A stretch of DNA of 64,000 nt from Anaeromyxobacter paludicola. Its GTDB lineage: Bacteria > Myxococcota > Myxococcia > Myxococcales > Anaeromyxobacteraceae. Below the pieces are notes generated by a model. It was not told where the DNA came from and ran no database searches. It saw only the letters and a list, made by a program, of their open reading frames with translations. The translations under genes and the position numbers were made by a program. The stretch lies in assembly GCF_023169965.1 (NCBI RefSeq), contig NZ_AP025592.1, positions 248,001-312,000 on the forward strand, written 5' to 3'. Positions 2 through 39,332 of the stretch are shown here, one piece after another. The stretch's first letter is position 1; the number at the start of each line of letters is the position of its first letter.

Positions 2-673
2 CGCGCGGTGGCGGCCGGCCTCTTCGCCCGCTTCGAGGCGGAGGGGAGGGTAGGGGACCCGGCGGTCTGGGCGGCTCGGCGGGAGGCGGTGCTGGCGCGG
101 CTCGACCGGGTGGTGGAGGCGGAGGGGCGCGACGCCGGCGGGCTCGTGCCGCGGCTCCTCGAGCACCAGTTCGGCGGGCGCGGCGCCGAGCCGCCGCTCG
201 CGATCGAGGACGGCGCCGAGACGGTGCTGCTCCAGGGGCGCATCGACCGCGTGGACTCGGGCGGCGGCCGGCTCCTCGTGCTCGACTACAAGAACGCCCG
301 CAGCGGCGCCGAGCAGCAGGAGAAGCTCGAGCCCGAGGCGCTCGGGGAGGTCAACTTCCAGGTCCCGGCCTACCTGCTCGCGGCGGCGCGGGCGCTGCCC
401 GGCGCGGAGCGGCTCGAGGCCACCTACCTCCTCCTGCGCTCGGCCGAGCGGGCCGAGCCGTACGCCGCCGCCGCGGGCGACGGCTACTTCGCCCTCGACG
501 CGGCGCGCCGGGCCGAGCTGCGCGCGGCGGGCGCGCCCAACTTCGCCGACCAGGTGGCGGCGGTGGTCCGCCGGATCCGCGCCGGCGAGTTCCCCATCGC
601 CTCGAGGAGCTGCAAGGGCTGCGGGTTCGGCGCGGTCTGCCGGTTCCAGGCGGCGGCGGAGGAGCCGGCGTGA
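2..673 (+). CDS. addB: AddB-like PD-(D/E)XK nuclease subunit, C-terminal part (cut by window edge)
   Basis: The reading frame is open from the left edge, so this is the C-terminal ~220 residues of a larger protein. It shows the RecB-family nuclease core: GRIDRVD, then the LVLDYK motif carrying the metal-binding Asp and catalytic Lys, then FQVPAYLLAA (the Q-x3-Y motif). The end carries C-x2-C-x5-C (codons at 611, 620 and 638), the same spacing as the Fe-S cysteines of AddB. The stop overlaps the start of the next gene as GTGA, so the two subunits are probably translationally coupled. Family knowledge: AddAB/AdnAB resects double-strand breaks for RecA loading. An internal GTG at position 8 should not be taken as the start. 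Confidence 0.8.
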   Translation, partial: RAVAAGLFARFEAEGRVGDPAVWAARREAVLARLDRVVEAEGRDAGGLVPRLLEHQFGGRGAEPPLAIEDGAETVLLQGRIDRVDSGGGRLLVLDYKNARSGAEQQEKLEPEALGEVNFQVPAYLLAAARALPGAERLEATYLLLRSAERAEPYAAAAGDGYFALDAARRAELRAAGAPNFADQVAAVVRRIRAGEFPIASRSCKGCGFGAVCRFQAAAEEPA

Positions 674-3600
674 GCAAGGTCCTCGTCTGGAGCGGCGCGG
701 CGCAGGCGCTCTTCCGGCTCGACGCCGACACGGCGGTGTCGGCCGGCGCCGGCTCGGGCAAGACCACCTGCCTCGTCGAGCTCTGCCTGCGGCTCCTCTC
801 CGGCGAGGCGACCGGCGAGCCCTGCGAGCCCGCCGCGCTCGCGGCCATCACCTTCACCGAGAAGGCCGCCGAGGAGCTCTCGGAGCGGCTGCGCGCCGCG
901 GTGGGAGAGCGGGCGCGGGCGGCCGGGCCGGGATCGGACGAGGCGCGGGCCTGGCTCGCCCGGCTGCACGGCCTCGACCGGATGCAGGTCGGCACCATCC
1001 ACGGCTTCGCCTCGCGCCTGCTGCGGGAGCACGCGCTCGAGGCGGGGCTCGACCCGGACTTCGCCGTCGCCGAGGAGGAGCGGTCGTCGGAGTGGCGGCG
1101 CGAGGCGGCCCGGGCGGCGGTGGTCGAGGCGGTGGACGCCGGGCGCGCGGAGGCGCTGCGGCTCTGCGCCGGGCACGGCGCCGGTGGGCGCCGGCAGGGG
1201 CTCGCCGACGTGGTGGCGGAGCTCCTGCGCGAGCGCGCCACCCTGGGCGCGACCGGCCCGCTGCTGCCGGCCCCGGACCGGACCGAGGAGGCGCGGGCCG
1301 CGCGGGCGGCGCTGCTCCGGGCCTGCGACGGCCTCCTCGCGGCGGCCGCCGACGTCGCCACCCAGAGCGGGCGCAAGGCGATGGCCGCGCTGGCCGAGCG
1401 GGCGGCGGCGCTCCCCGAGGAGGACCGCGCGGGCCCGCTCACGGTGGGCGGCATCGGCCGGCTCACCGGGCTCGCCCAGGCGGTGAAGGGCTGGCGGGTC
1501 GGCAAGTCGGACGGCGAGCGCTCCCGATCGCTCCGGGCCGAGCTCGCCGACGCGGCCGAGGCGTTCGCGCCGCTCGCCGCGGAGGCGCTGGCCGGTCCGC
1601 AGAAGGCGGAGCTGTGCCGGCTCGCGGCGAGGGCGGAGGAGCTGTACGCCCGTCGCAAGCGGGCCGAGCACGCGCTCGACTTCGACGACCTCCTGCTCGG
1701 CGCGCGCGACCTGCTCCGCGCCGACGCGCCGCTCCGGGCCGAGCTGCGGGGGCGCTTCCGCGCGCTCCTCGTGGACGAGTACCAGGACGTGAACCGGCTG
1801 CAGCAGGAGCTCTTCGAGCTGCTCGCGTCCCCGGGCGCGGGCGAGGGCCCCCGCGCCGTCCGCGTCGGCGTGGGCGACCTGAAGCAGTCGATCTACCGGT
1901 TCCGCGGAGCCGACGTGGCGGTCTTCCGCCGGTTCATGGACGAGCTCGCGGGCGGCGGCGGGCGCGTGCTCCACCTCTCGCAGAACCACCGGTCCTCGCC
2001 GGCGGTGCTCGAGCTCGTAAACGAGACCTTCGCCCGCTGCATGCAGCCCGCCGGCGCGGACGCCCGTCCCTACGAGCTCGCCTTCGGCGGCGACGACCGG
2101 CTGCTGCCGGTGCGCGGCGAGGGCGGGCGGCCCGCCTGCGAGCTGCTCTGCGACGGCGAGGGCGGTCGCGCGGCCGAGCGGCGCGAGCGCGAGGCGGCGG
2201 CGGTCGCGGCGCGGGTGAAGGCCCTCGTCGGCGGGGCGGCCGGGCTCACCGTGCCGGCCCGCGGCCCGGACGGCGTGGAGCGGCCGCGCGCCCCCCGCTA
2301 CGGCGACGTCGCCATCCTCTTCCGCCGGCTCACGCAGATCGGCGAGTACGAGCGGGCGCTGCGCGCCGCCGGCATCCCCTACCGGCTCGCGCGCGGCGGC
2401 GGCTTCTACCAGGCGCCCGAGGTGCGGGACCTCGGCGAGCTCCTGGCGAGCCTCTTCGACCCGGAGGACGCGCTCTCCTGGGCCGCGCTGCTCCGCTCGC
2501 CCTTCTGCGGCGTGAGCGACGGCGCGCTCTTCCTGCTGGGGCGGGCCGGCTTCCCGCGCCTGGCGCGGCTCTCGCCCGACGATGCCGCCGCGGCCCTGGC
2601 GCCGCTCTCTGGCGAGCCGCTGGCGGAGGCGCGCCCGGAGCCCTCCCTCCCCGCCGCGCGGGGAGGGCCGGGGAGGGGCGGCCAGGACGGGCCCGCGGCC
2701 TCGGACGACGCTCCTCGCCTGGCGCGCTTCCTCACCGTCTGGCAGTCGCTCCAGCCGCTGCGGGATCGCCTCCCCGTCCCCGATCTGCTCGACCGGGCCG
2801 TCGCCGCGCTCGACGTCGAGGCGGCCCTCCTCGCCGCGCCCGACGGCGAGCGGCGGCTCGTCAACCTGCGGAAGGCCATCGGGCTGGCGCGGCGCTTCTC
2901 CGCCCAGGGCGGCACCGCCCGCGCCTTCGCCGAGCGGCTGCGGGTGATGGCCGAGCGGCCGCCCCGCGAGCCCGAGGCGGAGCTCGAGGCCGCCGACGCC
3001 GTCGCGGTGCTCTCGGTCCACCAGGCGAAGGGGCTCGAGTGGCCGGTGGTCTTCGTCCCCGACCTCGGGGCGGCGCAGCGGAACGACGGCCGCCGCGCGC
3101 TCCTCGACGCCGGCGACCGGCTCTGCGCGCAGCTCTACGACCCGGCCGCGGAGCGGTTCCTCCCGACGGCCGCGGTCGAGGCCGCGCGCGAGGAGGCGAA
3201 GCGCGCGCAGGCCGCCGAGTCGCGGCGGCTCCTCTACGTGGCCCTCACCCGCGCCCGCGACCACCTGGTCCTCTCCGGCGAGAGCGCCCGCGGCGCGTCC
3301 GAGAGTTGGCGCGCCTTCGTCGAGGTCGCCGCGGCCGCCAGGCCCGACCTCGTCCGGACCGTCCCGAGCGCCGAGGCGGCGAGCGCGCTCGCGGGCCCCG
3401 CGCCGCTCCCGGCTGCCCCCGCCGCCCCGGCGCCCCTCCCGCGCCTCGGCGCCCCGCGGCTCGCCGCCCCGCCGCGCCTGGCCGCGGTCCGGCTCGCCGT
3501 CACCGAGCTTGCCGAGCACGCCCGCTGCCCGCGGCGCCACTTCTTCGCGCGCCACCTCGGGCTGCCCGAGCGGAGTCACGTCTCCGGCCAGCCGGTGCAG

Positions 3601-4272
3601 GACGACCCGGAGCGCGCCACCGCGCGCGGCACGCTCGCGCACGCCATGCTGGCCGAGACCGATCTCGCCGCGCCGCCGCTCGAGCGTCGCGCGCAGCTCT
3701 CGGCCGCCGCCGCGCGCCGCGGCTACGACCCGGGGAGCCAGGGGGTGCGCCGGATCCTGGGCGACGTGTCGCGCTTCCTCGACGCCGCCGAGGGCCGCGC
3801 GCTCGCGGAGGCGGCGCGCAAGGGCCGGGTCCGGCGCGAGCTGCCGTTCCTGCTGCGCCTCGCCGGCGACGGCGTGCCGGACTGCTACCTCACCGGCGCC
3901 ATCGACGCGCTGGTCGAGGCCGGTCGCGAGGCGGTGGTCATCGACTTCAAGTACGCCCACCCCCGGCGCGAGGCGGCCGAGCGCTACCGGATGCAGCTGC
4001 TCGCGTACGCGCTCGCGGCGCAGCGGGCGCTCCCGGGATCGAGCATCCGCGCCCGGCTCCAGTTCCTGCGCGGGAGCTGCGCCGCCCTCGACCTCACGCC
4101 CACCGACTCCGAGCTGTCGCGCTTCGCCCGCGAGGCCCCCTTCGCCGCCGCGTCCGCCTGCGCCGGCACCGCCGCCCAGCGGACCCCCGCCGCCCTCGGC
4201 CGCGACCGCGCCCGCTGCGAGGCCGAAGGCTGCGGCTACCTGCTCCGCTGCTACCCGAGCGGCGGCGCGTAG
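670..4272 (+). CDS. addA: AddA-like UvrD/Rep helicase with C-terminal nuclease
   Basis: A 1200-residue superfamily 1A helicase-nuclease. Motifs seen: Walker A AGAGSGKTT (~25-33), Walker B LLVDEYQDVN (~366-375), GDLKQSIYRFRG (~400), VHQAKGLEWPVVF (~783), LYVALTRARDHLVL (~855). The C-terminal RecB-type nuclease has AIDALVEA, VVIDFKYA (~1090) and QLLAYALA. Cys953 in ARCPRRHFF and Cys1183/1188/1194 near the C terminus look like an Fe-S nuclease set, which is usual for AddB but not for Bacillus AddA. The GTG start overlaps the stop of the upstream subunit. A 23-bp palindrome of a dispersed family is read in frame at residues ~659-667, in an Arg/Gly/Pro-rich stretch. Substrate and role are inferred from the family: processive unwinding and cutting at DNA ends. 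Confidence 0.85.
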   Translation: MSKVLVWSGAAQALFRLDADTAVSAGAGSGKTTCLVELCLRLLSGEATGEPCEPAALAAITFTEKAAEELSERLRAAVGERARAAGPGSDEARAWLARLHGLDRMQVGTIHGFASRLLREHALEAGLDPDFAVAEEERSSEWRREAARAAVVEAVDAGRAEALRLCAGHGAGGRRQGLADVVAELLRERATLGATGPLLPAPDRTEEARAARAALLRACDGLLAAAADVATQSGRKAMAALAERAAALPEEDRAGPLTVGGIGRLTGLAQAVKGWRVGKSDGERSRSLRAELADAAEAFAPLAAEALAGPQKAELCRLAARAEELYARRKRAEHALDFDDLLLGARDLLRADAPLRAELRGRFRALLVDEYQDVNRLQQELFELLASPGAGEGPRAVRVGVGDLKQSIYRFRGADVAVFRRFMDELAGGGGRVLHLSQNHRSSPAVLELVNETFARCMQPAGADARPYELAFGGDDRLLPVRGEGGRPACELLCDGEGGRAAERREREAAAVAARVKALVGGAAGLTVPARGPDGVERPRAPRYGDVAILFRRLTQIGEYERALRAAGIPYRLARGGGFYQAPEVRDLGELLASLFDPEDALSWAALLRSPFCGVSDGALFLLGRAGFPRLARLSPDDAAAALAPLSGEPLAEARPEPSLPAARGGPGRGGQDGPAASDDAPRLARFLTVWQSLQPLRDRLPVPDLLDRAVAALDVEAALLAAPDGERRLVNLRKAIGLARRFSAQGGTARAFAERLRVMAERPPREPEAELEAADAVAVLSVHQAKGLEWPVVFVPDLGAAQRNDGRRALLDAGDRLCAQLYDPAAERFLPTAAVEAAREEAKRAQAAESRRLLYVALTRARDHLVLSGESARGASESWRAFVEVAAAARPDLVRTVPSAEAASALAGPAPLPAAPAAPAPLPRLGAPRLAAPPRLAAVRLAVTELAEHARCPRRHFFARHLGLPERSHVSGQPVQDDPERATARGTLAHAMLAETDLAAPPLERRAQLSAAAARRGYDPGSQGVRRILGDVSRFLDAAEGRALAEAARKGRVRRELPFLLRLAGDGVPDCYLTGAIDALVEAGREAVVIDFKYAHPRREAAERYRMQLLAYALAAQRALPGSSIRARLQFLRGSCAALDLTPTDSELSRFAREAPFAAASACAGTAAQRTPAALGRDRARCEAEGCGYLLRCYPSGGA
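2645..2667. repeat. REP-like palindrome inside addA
   Basis: CCCTCCCCGC, loop CGC, GCGGGGAGGG: a perfect 10-bp stem with a 3-nt loop, followed by a GGGGAGGGGCG tract. The same arrangement occurs intergenically at 25998-26020 with a TGC loop. Here it is translated in frame as part of a Pro/Gly/Arg-rich segment of the helicase. Confidence 0.6.
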
Positions 4273-4340
4273 CCCGGGCCCGAATCAAGACCGGGAGGCC
4301 GCCGGGGACGGGCGGCCGGAAGGAGGGGCCGCCGGGGGAG

Positions 4341-4820
4341 GGGTCCCAGCGCAGCTGGGGAGGGGCGCAGCCCCTCCAAGCCGGGCGAGCCTCCGCGACC
4401 CGCGAAGGCGGGCGCGGAGGCGCAAGGGCCCCGGCGAGCAGGGGTGGGGCCCCGACGGCTCTGCCGGCGGGGCGGGGCAGCATGCCCCGTGTAAAAGCCG
4501 GGGTCCCAGCGCAGCTGGGGAGGGGCGCAGCCCCTCCAAGCCGGGCGAGCCTCCGCGACCCGCGAAGGCGGGCGCGGAGGCGCAAGGGCCCCGGCGAGCA
4601 GGGGTGGGGCCCCGACGGCTCTGCCGGCGGGGCGGGGCAGCATGCCCCGTGTAAAAGCCGGGGTCCCAGCGCAGCTGGGGAGGGGCGCAGCCCCTCCAAG
4701 CCGGGCGAGCCTCCGCGACCCGCGAAGGCGGGCGCGGAGGCGCAAGGGCCCCGGCGAGCAAGGGTGGGGCCCCGACGGCTCCGCCGGCGGGGCGGGGCAG
4801 CATGCCCCGTGTAACAACCG
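4341..4820. repeat. three tandem copies of a 160-bp multi-hairpin repeat
   Basis: Copies start at 4341, 4501 and 4661, each 160 bp. Copies 1 and 2 look identical; copy 3 differs at a few bases near its end. Each unit folds into successive perfect hairpins. In copy 1: CCCAGC-GCA-GCTGGG (4345-4359), GGAGGGGC-GCA-GCCCCTCC (4359-4377), a long stem 4389-4421 with GAAG loop and one bulged A, and CGGGGCA-GCA-TGCCCCG (4473-4489). Three of the four loops are GCA. A partial trace of the unit end follows copy 3 and runs up to the stop codon of the next, opposite-strand gene at 4837. The unit has no spacers, so it is not a CRISPR. The 564 bp between addA and that gene hold nothing else I can identify. 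Confidence 0.9.
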
Positions 4821-4836
4821 GGCAGCATGCCCCGTT

Positions 4837-5136
4837 CTACGGATGCCGGGTAGGCGCCGCCCCCGTCTCGACCGCCTCCTTGCCCAGGTTCCCGCGGTGG
4901 CGCACGTCGCGCCCGAACATCCCGAATCGGGCACCGGCCTCCCCGAACTCGCGCTGGACCTCGTCGGGGCTCTGGTAGATCCGGTCCGGCAGGCTCCGGA
5001 GGAAGTTGATCGCGTCCGCCGGCGCGCCCGCCTCGGCGGCGGCGGTGGCGAGGTCGTCCCGCGAGATGGGGTACTCCACCTCGGAGAGGATCGCCGAAGG
5101 GCTCTGCTCGGGTGGCTCGCCGATTCCCATGGCCAT
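4837..5136 (-). CDS. DUF2795 domain protein
   Basis: A 99-residue protein. Residues ~20-65 (VEYPISRDDLATAAAEAGAP, then INFLRSLPDRIYQSPDEV) match the DUF2795 pattern of a YP-x-S/T-K-x-x-L motif followed by LPDR-x-Y-x-S-P-x-x-V. Members are small soluble proteins of unknown function; I assign none. The ATG at 5136 was chosen because GGGAGAG lies about 7 nt upstream, whereas the longer open frame up to 5295 has an Arg/Gly-rich, unconserved N terminus. The gene ends directly against the 160-bp repeat array and is divergent from the aldolase gene, sharing its 185-bp upstream region. Confidence 0.7.
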   Translation of the reverse strand: MAMGIGEPPEQSPSAILSEVEYPISRDDLATAAAEAGAPADAINFLRSLPDRIYQSPDEVQREFGEAGARFGMFGRDVRHRGNLGKEAVETGAAPTRHP

Positions 5137-5238
5137 GCGCTTTCTCTCCCGGTCGAGGGGTCTGGCGGAACCATGCGCAGCCCCGTCCCGGTGCGCCACC
5201 TCGCCGCGATCGCCGCCGCCCGCAGGGGCCGATTCCCC

Positions 5239-5268
5239 TTGATTGATCGCTCGGGGAGTCCCTAAATA
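5239..5268 (+). promoter_or_regulatory. sigma70-like promoter of the aldolase gene
   Basis: TTGATT (5239-5244), 18-nt spacer, TAAATA (5263-5268). A start near 5275 would give a leader of about 47 nt, which includes GGGGAGA just before the ATG at 5322. The -10 is one of the few AT-rich hexamers in this region. Confidence 0.6.
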
Positions 5269-5321
5269 CGGGGCGCCGCGCAGCAGCCGGACCACACCAG
5301 AACTTCACGGGGAGAACGTCG

Positions 5322-37830: not shown

Positions 37831-37905
37831 GCCCCTAGTCTAGCGCGGCGCCGGCCCGCGCCCCCCGCCGGCCGTCGGCCGCGCCTCCGCCGGGGCGCAC
37901 GCCTG

Positions 37906-37980
37906 GGCTACGCCACGGCTGCGCCGCGGCTCACGCCACGGCTGCGCCGGGGCTCACGCCACGGCTGCGCCGGGGCTCAC
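37906..37980. repeat. 23-bp tandem repeat running into the 3' end of the sugar dehydrogenase gene
   Basis: Units of GGCTCACGCCACGGCTGCGC plus three bases start at 37928 and 37951; a shorter unit lacking one C starts at 37906, and a fourth, partial unit starts at 37974. That last unit contains the TCA that is the stop codon of the minus-strand dehydrogenase gene. The rest of the 146-bp gap is GC-rich without recognisable signals. Confidence 0.7.
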
Positions 37981-39332
37981 GCCTTGACGATCTTTTCGCG
38001 GCCGGCCTTGACGCCCCGGCAGGCGTTGCGCGTGTCCACCACGAGCGCGCTCCGCTCCACCACCCGGGCGTAGTCCACCTCGGAGTGGTCGGTGGCGATG
38101 AGGACGGCGTCCGAGCCGGCGAGGGCCTCGTCGGTGAGGGGCACGCTCACCATGTCGAGCGAGTGGTGGCGCATCCGCGGGACCCGGGGCACGAAGGGGT
38201 CGTGGTAGACCACCTGCGCGCCGCGCGCCTGCAGCAGCTCGATGAGCCGGATGGCCGGGCTCTCGCGCATGTCGTCCACGTCCCGCTTGTAGGCGATGCC
38301 GAGGACCAGGATCCTCGCCCCCTTGAGCGCCAGCCCGCGGTCGTTGAGCGCCTCCATCGTCCGCTGCACCACGTAGTGGGGCATGGCGGTGTTGATCTCG
38401 CCGGCGAGCTCGATGAAGCGGGTCTGGAACTCGAACTGGCGCGCCTTCCAGGTGAGGTAGAAGGGGTCGATGGGGATGCAGTGGCCGCCGAGGCCCGGCC
38501 CCGGCTGGAAGGGCATGAAGCCGAAGGGCTTGGTGCTGGCCGCCTCGATCACCTCCCAGACGTCCATGCCCATCCGGTCGCAGAGCATCTTGAGCTCGTT
38601 CACCAGCGCGATGTTCACCGACCGGAAGATGTTCTCGAGGAGCTTCGTGGTCTCGGCGACGCGGGTCGAGCTCACCGGCACGACCCGCTCGAACGCGGCG
38701 CCGTAGAGCGCGAGCGCCGCCTCCAGGCAGCGGGGCGTCAGCCCGCCGACCACCTTCGGGATGGTGTGCGTCTGGACGCCGGAGCCCGGGTTCTCGCGCT
38801 CGGGCGAGAAGGCCAGGAAGAAGTCGCGCCCGGCCTCGAGGCCGCTGCCGCGCTCCAGGATGGGCCGGAGCACCTCGTCGGTGGTGCCGGGCCAGGTGGT
38901 GGACTCGAGGACCACGAGCTGCCCGGCGCGCAGGTGCGGGGCGATCGCCTCGCCGGTCCGGGTGACGAACGAGAGGTCCGGCTCGCGCTCCGGCGTGAGC
39001 GGCGTCGGCACGCAGATCACCACCGCGTCGCAGCCGCGCAGCGCGGCGAAGTCGCTGGTCGCCGAGAGGCGCCCCGCCCGCACCGCGCCGGCGATCGCGT
39101 CGGCCGGGACGTGCTTGATGTAGCTCTTGCCGGCCGCGAGGGCGCGCGGCTTCTCCGGGTCCACGTCCACGCCCAGCGCCGCGAGCCCCTTGCCCGCGAA
39201 GGTGAGCGCCAGCGGCAGCCCCACGTAGCCGAGCCCCACCACGCCCACCACGGCCTCCCGCGCCGCCACGCGGCCGTGCAGCCCGGCGTCCACCCCACCC
39301 ACCGTCTCCATGTCGTCCCCCTGCTGCTCCAT
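37977..39332 (-). CDS. UDP-sugar 6-dehydrogenase (UDP-GlcNAc/UDP-Glc dehydrogenase family)
   Basis: A ~451-residue NAD enzyme that oxidises C6 of a UDP-hexose to the uronate. Seen: VVGVVGLGYVGLPLALTFAG (Rossmann), DAVVICVPTPLTPEREPDLS, GQLVVLESTTWPGTTDEVLR, FSPERENPG, ETTKLLENIFRSVNIALVNE, PGPGLGGHCIPIDPFYLTWK with the catalytic Cys, and a C-terminal UDP-binding domain with ILVLGIAYKRDVDDMRESPA. The STKPFGFMPFQPGPG stretch favours the WbpA/TuaD-like UDP-N-acetylhexosamine subgroup. Start uncertain: ATG 39332 (GAGG close upstream) or ATG 39311 (AGGGGGA upstream). Directly follows the heparinase-like gene. Confidence 0.88.
   Translation of the reverse strand: MEQQGDDMETVGGVDAGLHGRVAAREAVVGVVGLGYVGLPLALTFAGKGLAALGVDVDPEKPRALAAGKSYIKHVPADAIAGAVRAGRLSATSDFAALRGCDAVVICVPTPLTPEREPDLSFVTRTGEAIAPHLRAGQLVVLESTTWPGTTDEVLRPILERGSGLEAGRDFFLAFSPERENPGSGVQTHTIPKVVGGLTPRCLEAALALYGAAFERVVPVSSTRVAETTKLLENIFRSVNIALVNELKMLCDRMGMDVWEVIEAASTKPFGFMPFQPGPGLGGHCIPIDPFYLTWKARQFEFQTRFIELAGEINTAMPHYVVQRTMEALNDRGLALKGARILVLGIAYKRDVDDMRESPAIRLIELLQARGAQVVYHDPFVPRVPRMRHHSLDMVSVPLTDEALAGSDAVLIATDHSEVDYARVVERSALVVDTRNACRGVKAGREKIVKA

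Follow-up and report, generated by a model that had tools for sequence, protein, structure and literature searches.

A dispersed five-hairpin repeat next to stop codons in the Anaeromyxobacteraceae, probably a REP-like single-strand-DNA element moved in trans

The window analysed here, a 64,000-nt stretch of the Anaeromyxobacter paludicola genome, carries a tandem array between two convergent genes, one encoding an AddA/UvrD-like helicase-nuclease and the other a DUF2795 protein (Table 1). Head-to-tail repeats at 4340-4822 have a period of 160, 3.0 copies and 98% matches (Tandem Repeats Finder); the first two units are identical and the third shows 99% identity, in agreement with the exact 160-bp period and near identity of copies reported in a first-pass annotation made from the letters alone. 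Each 160-bp unit folds into five hairpins (P1-P5) rather than the four stems counted there, and the three GCA loops that it recorded are those capping P1, P2 and P5. P3 is long, variable and bulged; the loop of P4 is made of pyrimidines, and its stem contains an A.G mismatch. Both neighbouring stop codons flank the array, as had been seen, but its end lies at 4834 rather than 4820, extended by a fourth-unit remnant that consists of the terminal P5 hairpin alone. A single unit folds more stably than its shuffles on both strands (z -4.3 on plus, -3.6 on minus). No intrinsic terminator (GC hairpin plus T-run) was found in 4200-5300, T-rich tails are rare among element copies (2/156 on plus, 1/156 on minus), and no Rfam 15 covariance model matched the window at the gathering threshold. 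A separate tandem repeat at 37888-37983 (period 23, 3.7 copies) showed no relation to the hairpin element.

Table 1 Features of the array and its neighbours, in window coordinates.
Feature	Position	Strand	Remarks
AddA/UvrD-like helicase-nuclease gene, 5' neighbour	670..4272	+	stop 63 nt before copy 1
Element copy 1	4336..4490	+	model boundaries GGGA to CCCCGT; R1 covariance model 132.8 bits; repeat unit 4340-4499
P1 of copy 1	4345..4359	+	CCCAGC-GCA-GCTGGG; helix 1
P2 of copy 1	4360..4376	+	GAGGGGC-GCA-GCCCCTC; helix 2
P3 of copy 1	4380..4435	+	GCCGGG/CCCGGC outer stem, variable inner hairpin, 3' bulge GCAAGGG; helices 3-6
P4 of copy 1	4449..4473	+	GCCCCGACGGC-TCT-GCCGGCGGGGC; conserved A.G mismatch; helices 7-8
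P5 of copy 1, terminal hairpin	4473..4489	+	CGGGGCA-GCA-TGCCCCG; helix 9
Element copy 2	4496..4650	+	R1 126.7 bits
Element copy 3	4656..4810	+	R1 123.3 bits
Fourth-unit remnant, P5 hairpin only	4817..4834	+	ends 2 nt before opposing stop codon
TAG stop codon of DUF2795 gene, array anchor	4837..4839	-	
DUF2795 protein gene, convergent 3' neighbour	4837..5133	-	Pfam PF11387, 57 bits; conserved part given, start not established

The unit belongs to a dispersed family. A BLAST search, the kind of check proposed for estimating its copy number, gave at least 29 matches in the A. paludicola genome, and at least 25 were found there with a covariance model for which 26 copies served as input. Across the Anaeromyxobacteraceae, model matches occur in 17 of 24 genomes and five of six genera, with at least 64 in the richest genome; these copy numbers are lower bounds because scoring took the best candidates per genome. 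One genus (g3) has 14-64 matches, again as lower bounds, in eight of nine genomes and at least 3 in the ninth, incomplete genome, and among the best candidates per genome the model matched none in genus g6. Outside the family, copies turned up in a single genome, G027 (at least four weak matches), out of about 120 from the order; in this genome, from another family of the order, weak relatives of mainly the P4-P5 half were seen at L040:1499-1610. A pattern scan of contigs was too specific, returning four loci, all from Anaeromyxobacter. Draft contigs end inside or within ~100 nt of copies in G013 (C8, C11, C35, C42, C56, C67 and C69) and in G020 (C46, C64 and C102), which indicates that the element interrupts short-read assemblies and is under-counted in them. 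No Anaeromyxobacter repeat of such a kind was found in the literature searched, an absence that is weak evidence, and the element seems not to have been described before.

The stems of the family covary. In 88 model-aligned copies, 95.4% of cells are paired, and both partners have changed in 40 of 47 pairs; double-change cells number 497, compared with 135 in shuffles and 31-93 with partners slid. Compensatory changes support the stems, which the first-pass annotation had proposed checking by covariance modelling. Counts from these 88 copies lean towards structure because the alignment was fitted to it; a MAFFT alignment too displays compensatory changes. All six pairs of P1 covary family-wide and helix 1 is paired in 99.4%, and pairs in P1, P2 and P5 are 98% Watson-Crick. 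A separate scan of 4395 stem pairs, with scoring that penalised both mismatches equally, gave 24 G.T and 12 A.C, and two-sided changes far outnumber G.U intermediates. A transcribed RNA is expected to tolerate G.U on one strand. The perfect triloop hairpins within copies have a GNA loop on the plus strand in 332 of 411 cases, 291 of these 332 being closed by C-G, and background hairpins of the window outside the array have GNA on either strand in 5 of 72. Among the scored P5 hairpins 141 have a GCA loop, which may reflect common descent and not selection. The single-stranded linkers and the P4 A.G mismatch are conserved. According to PMC4686876, citing Yoshizawa 1997, DNA mini-hairpins with a GNA or GNNA loop and a closing G-C pair are extraordinarily stable. 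A structured RNA read from either side, one of the possibilities first raised for the array, is not favoured, since there are hardly any G.U pairs on either strand and the loops belong to this DNA mini-hairpin type.

One end of the element is fixed relative to genes. Gene ends and orientations, taken from a codon-usage gene caller rather than from annotation, place 145 copies between convergent (78), tandem (62) or divergent (5) genes. The opposing gene's stop codon lies at -1 to +9 from the P5 end in 69 of 116 distinct copies, and a further 19 of the 116, largely copies with the composite end described below, have it at 58-72 nt. No such rule holds for the 5' end, which is within 10 nt of a stop codon in 4 of 59 cases; the 5' flank is weakly conserved, and it is at the 3' flank that a regular motif, the stop codon, is found. 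The element is polar: its last hairpin, not the other end, is anchored at the opposing stop codon. The GATCA tail had hinted that the element might supply its neighbour's stop codon, an explanation rejected because five comparisons (L144, L312, L164, L137 and L131) find the stop as a native codon in the sister sequence that has no element. These comparisons show, as judged from aligned genomes, that the opposing gene's stop codon predates the insertion. The DUF2795 gene has orthologues in 12 of 24 family genomes, and in five species the element starts 2-3 nt after the TAG. A single copy is found there in G008, G016 and G020, a decayed single copy in the sister species G001, and none in G022, G004 or G021. 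Given the single decayed copy in G001, the triplication is specific to the lineage of A. paludicola among the genomes compared.

Occupied and empty orthologous sites show, at the level of genome comparison, that the element has moved. In G003 and G019, syntenic species of one genus, the G003 copy L144 is missing from G019 (L156), where the flanks join as AGCAGC|GGTCAG, and the G019 copy L312 is missing from G003 (L299) with a small local difference of ~8 nt. No sizeable target duplication was seen at these two cleanest empty sites, that is, no repeat longer than ~3 bp. Four further sites lack the element in G019 (L131, L134, L137 and L145), but their spacers have diverged. In another genome, G021, a near-identical subfamily lies at separate loci within a larger composite of ~240 bp and has spread recently.

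Seven loci have direct repeats of 36-85+ bp of the gene 3' end around the element. These were considered as long target-site duplications and rejected: remnants of a second element follow the second repeat (L067, L141 and L123) and clean empty sites have no target-site duplication, which together indicate tandem duplication of gene end plus element. At the orthologous loci L141 and L161 (G003 and G019), repeat copies match within each genome and differ between genomes, indicating homogenization. Because duplicated family copies are homogenized within genomes, the low divergence of the three units, first taken to mean recent amplification or strong conservation, is not in itself proof of recent amplification. 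The smpB 3' end, a gene named by eye from sequence, carries the element in two genera within a 70-85 bp direct repeat of the C-terminus (L067:1432-1764 at ~4.006 Mb in A. paludicola and L119:1420-1740 in G021). Copies short at the 5' end exist, but several start with a different P2-like hairpin, and retroelement-like 5' truncation is not claimed.

Orientation also follows replication. The origin was placed at dnaA, by dnaA-dnaN-recF order at the contig start in G003, G008 and G019, at 3.235 Mb in A. paludicola and at 2.916 Mb in G022. Of 74 copies from four genomes, 51 have the plus strand, which carries the C(GNA)G hairpins, on the lagging-strand template (P = 0.0015); adding G019 gives 62 of 90, with the same direction in all five genomes. 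The bias is 14:3 where flanking genes oppose the element and 8:1 where they run with it, and convergent sites taken alone give 17:10, which is not significant (P = 0.25).

The copies of the family are dispersed and covary, occupy some orthologous sites and are missing from others, and are polar, stop-adjacent and lagging-strand-biased. We favour, with a probability of roughly 0.6, the reading that the array is a local triplication of one ~150-nt non-autonomous mobile element of single-strand-DNA type, joined beside stop codons by a trans-acting enzyme. The plus strand, when single-stranded at the fork, would fold P1-P5 as DNA hairpins with C(GNA)G caps, to be recognized by a trans-acting single-strand transposase, for which the HUH/Y1 class is the best guess. 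This transposase would join the 3' end of the element next to an AT-containing motif, which in a GC-rich genome would mostly be an antisense stop codon (CTA, TCA or TTA). The stable hairpins could then provoke slippage or unequal exchange, producing head-to-tail arrays and duplications of gene 3' end plus element, and gene conversion would keep the duplicates alike. Several observations count against this reading. No mobilizing enzyme was found, and 31 Y1_Tnp loci have no nearby copy. IS608-type enzymes recognize a motif at the left end, but here the biased strand has its regular motif at the right end. The bias is weak at convergent sites, the gene calls come from our own caller, and the P5 GCA possibly reflects descent. 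A more specific version, which we hold tentatively, makes the stop codon itself the landing rule: a single-strand-DNA element would enter the lagging-strand template behind the stops of head-on genes, with C(GNA)G mini-hairpins as the recognition code of a putative enzyme. Such an element would spread without breaking genes because it enters immediately behind their stop codons.

The main rival is a functional 3' untranslated-region element, given a report that ribosomes stall at E. coli REPs lying no more than 15 nt from a stop codon (PMC12306157). Minus-strand hairpins 0-9 nt past the stop would delay termination, make ribosomes stall or shield the end of the mRNA, and their position would be kept by selection rather than targeting, by analogy with those REPs. 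We consider this a credible minority explanation. The tight spacing to the opposing stop codon and the avoidance of divergent gene pairs (5/145) speak for it. Against it, G.U pairs are nearly absent from either strand, and the minus-strand loops of P1, P2 and P5 (TGC, TTC and others) include no known stable RNA loop. Occupancy of the same gene is also patchy between close species, and the fork bias tracks replication rather than transcription.

A conventional MITE, the remnant of a DDE transposon with terminal inverted repeats, appears improbable; here the unit that transposes would be the G021 composite bounded by CTAAACG and CGTTTAG, with the hairpin chain carried as cargo. Ten composite copies examined in G021 do have ~240 bp in common at separate loci, nearly all with CTAAACG/CGTTTAG ends. 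Their composite end, the 60-nt hairpin CTAAACGAGGG...CCCTCGTTTAG, makes up another dispersed family, with 45 matches in G021, 26 in G020, 16 in G013 and 8 in G008. Nevertheless, this end has no match in the A. paludicola genome despite at least 25 core copies, the core has no terminal inverted repeats, and neither of the two cleanest empty sites shows a sizeable target duplication. The second palindrome can be seen in composite with the hairpin element at L112:1465-1708 of G021, and in several composite copies (L110, L112 and L118) the neighbouring convergent gene has its TAA stop within the TTTAG end.

Still less probable is an oriented, fork-polar protein-binding site that organizes the chromosome and whose positions are set by selection. 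Fork-biased orientation, conserved single-stranded linkers and the conserved P4 A.G mismatch would suit such a site, but the ~20-60 copies occupy different loci in sister species, are often decayed and vary greatly in P3. An incidental local tandem duplication without wider meaning, the reading that the first-pass annotation tied to a unit occurring only here with freely varying stems, draws on the lineage-specific triplication among the genomes compared. It is clearly refuted, since 17 genomes of the family hold dozens of covarying copies at scattered sites.

Bacteria commonly carry small palindromic repeats, whose site choice and strand of movement are rarely visible. This family gives three independent readouts, namely empty sites between sister species, stop-codon spacing and fork-orientation bias, which make a safe-landing rule for mobile DNA testable. 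It turns over near-identical tandem units and gene-end duplications and so offers a natural setting in which to study gene conversion and duplication driven by hairpins; the element is also a strain marker for Anaeromyxobacter.

The suggestion of a compound REP/BIME-like element holds in part. Like REP, BIME and REPIN sequences, which are RAYT-mobilized in E. coli, Pseudomonas and Stenotrophomonas, the element is a dispersed, multi-copy intergenic repeat with compensatory palindromes and GC-rich perfect stems near gene 3' ends, and REPINs too form tandem clusters of near-identical units that include flanking DNA (PMC3116915). It is not a strict REP, because it has no GTAG/CGTC tag and no flanked RAYT, is 150 nt rather than 20-40 nt long and is polar and head-to-tail; REPs are defined as 20-40 nt with GTAG/CGTC tags and a flanked RAYT (PMC2817692, PMC3733652), with a GTAG/GTGG tetranucleotide 0-2 nt 5' of the hairpin (PMC6006769). 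GTAG/GTGG was found near P5 in 7 of 156 copies (minus) and at the 5' end in 22 of 156 (plus), and an unpaired CGTC at a hairpin end in 1 of 156. Rather than an inverted REP doublet, the ~150-nt unit has five different hairpins in fixed order, repeated head-to-tail, with one end stop-anchored. A RAYT-flanked REP was rejected because no copy lies beside any of the 31 Y1_Tnp loci (best 15.5 bits, E 0.15). Most of these genomes encode RAYT-like proteins, among them three Y1 proteins in A. paludicola (L021:1258-2124, L022:1114-2292 and L023:1396-2283) that score 49-58 bits with NF047646, under its NCBIfam cut-off of 80; RAYT-like proteins are candidates only, since such genes also occur in genus g6, which is without the element.

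MITEs and other small interspersed repeats such as Correia, ERIC and RUP are short, non-coding, dispersed and intergenic, as is the element. Its core differs from these in being a chain of separate hairpins without terminal inverted repeats or target duplication, CTAAACG/CGTTTAG ends being found on the G021 composite. CGTC-tagged repeats (dRS3, RPE) share with it palindromic structure, the lack of a dedicated transposase nearby, convergent and unidirectional sites and a position that is often near ORF ends (PMC3733652), but the element has no CGTC tag, is compound and has loops of 3 (GNA) rather than 4-5. With IS200/IS605 and their non-autonomous derivatives it has in common terminal hairpins, the absence of a sizeable target duplication (two empty sites) and lagging-strand-template bias (51:23; convergent alone 17:10) (PMC6006769, PMC2817692), and it differs in having no tnpA inside or beside it and a regular flanking motif at the 3' side of the biased strand. 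Set against these systems, the element is probably a new REP-like, non-autonomous single-strand-DNA element, moved in trans by a putative enzyme.
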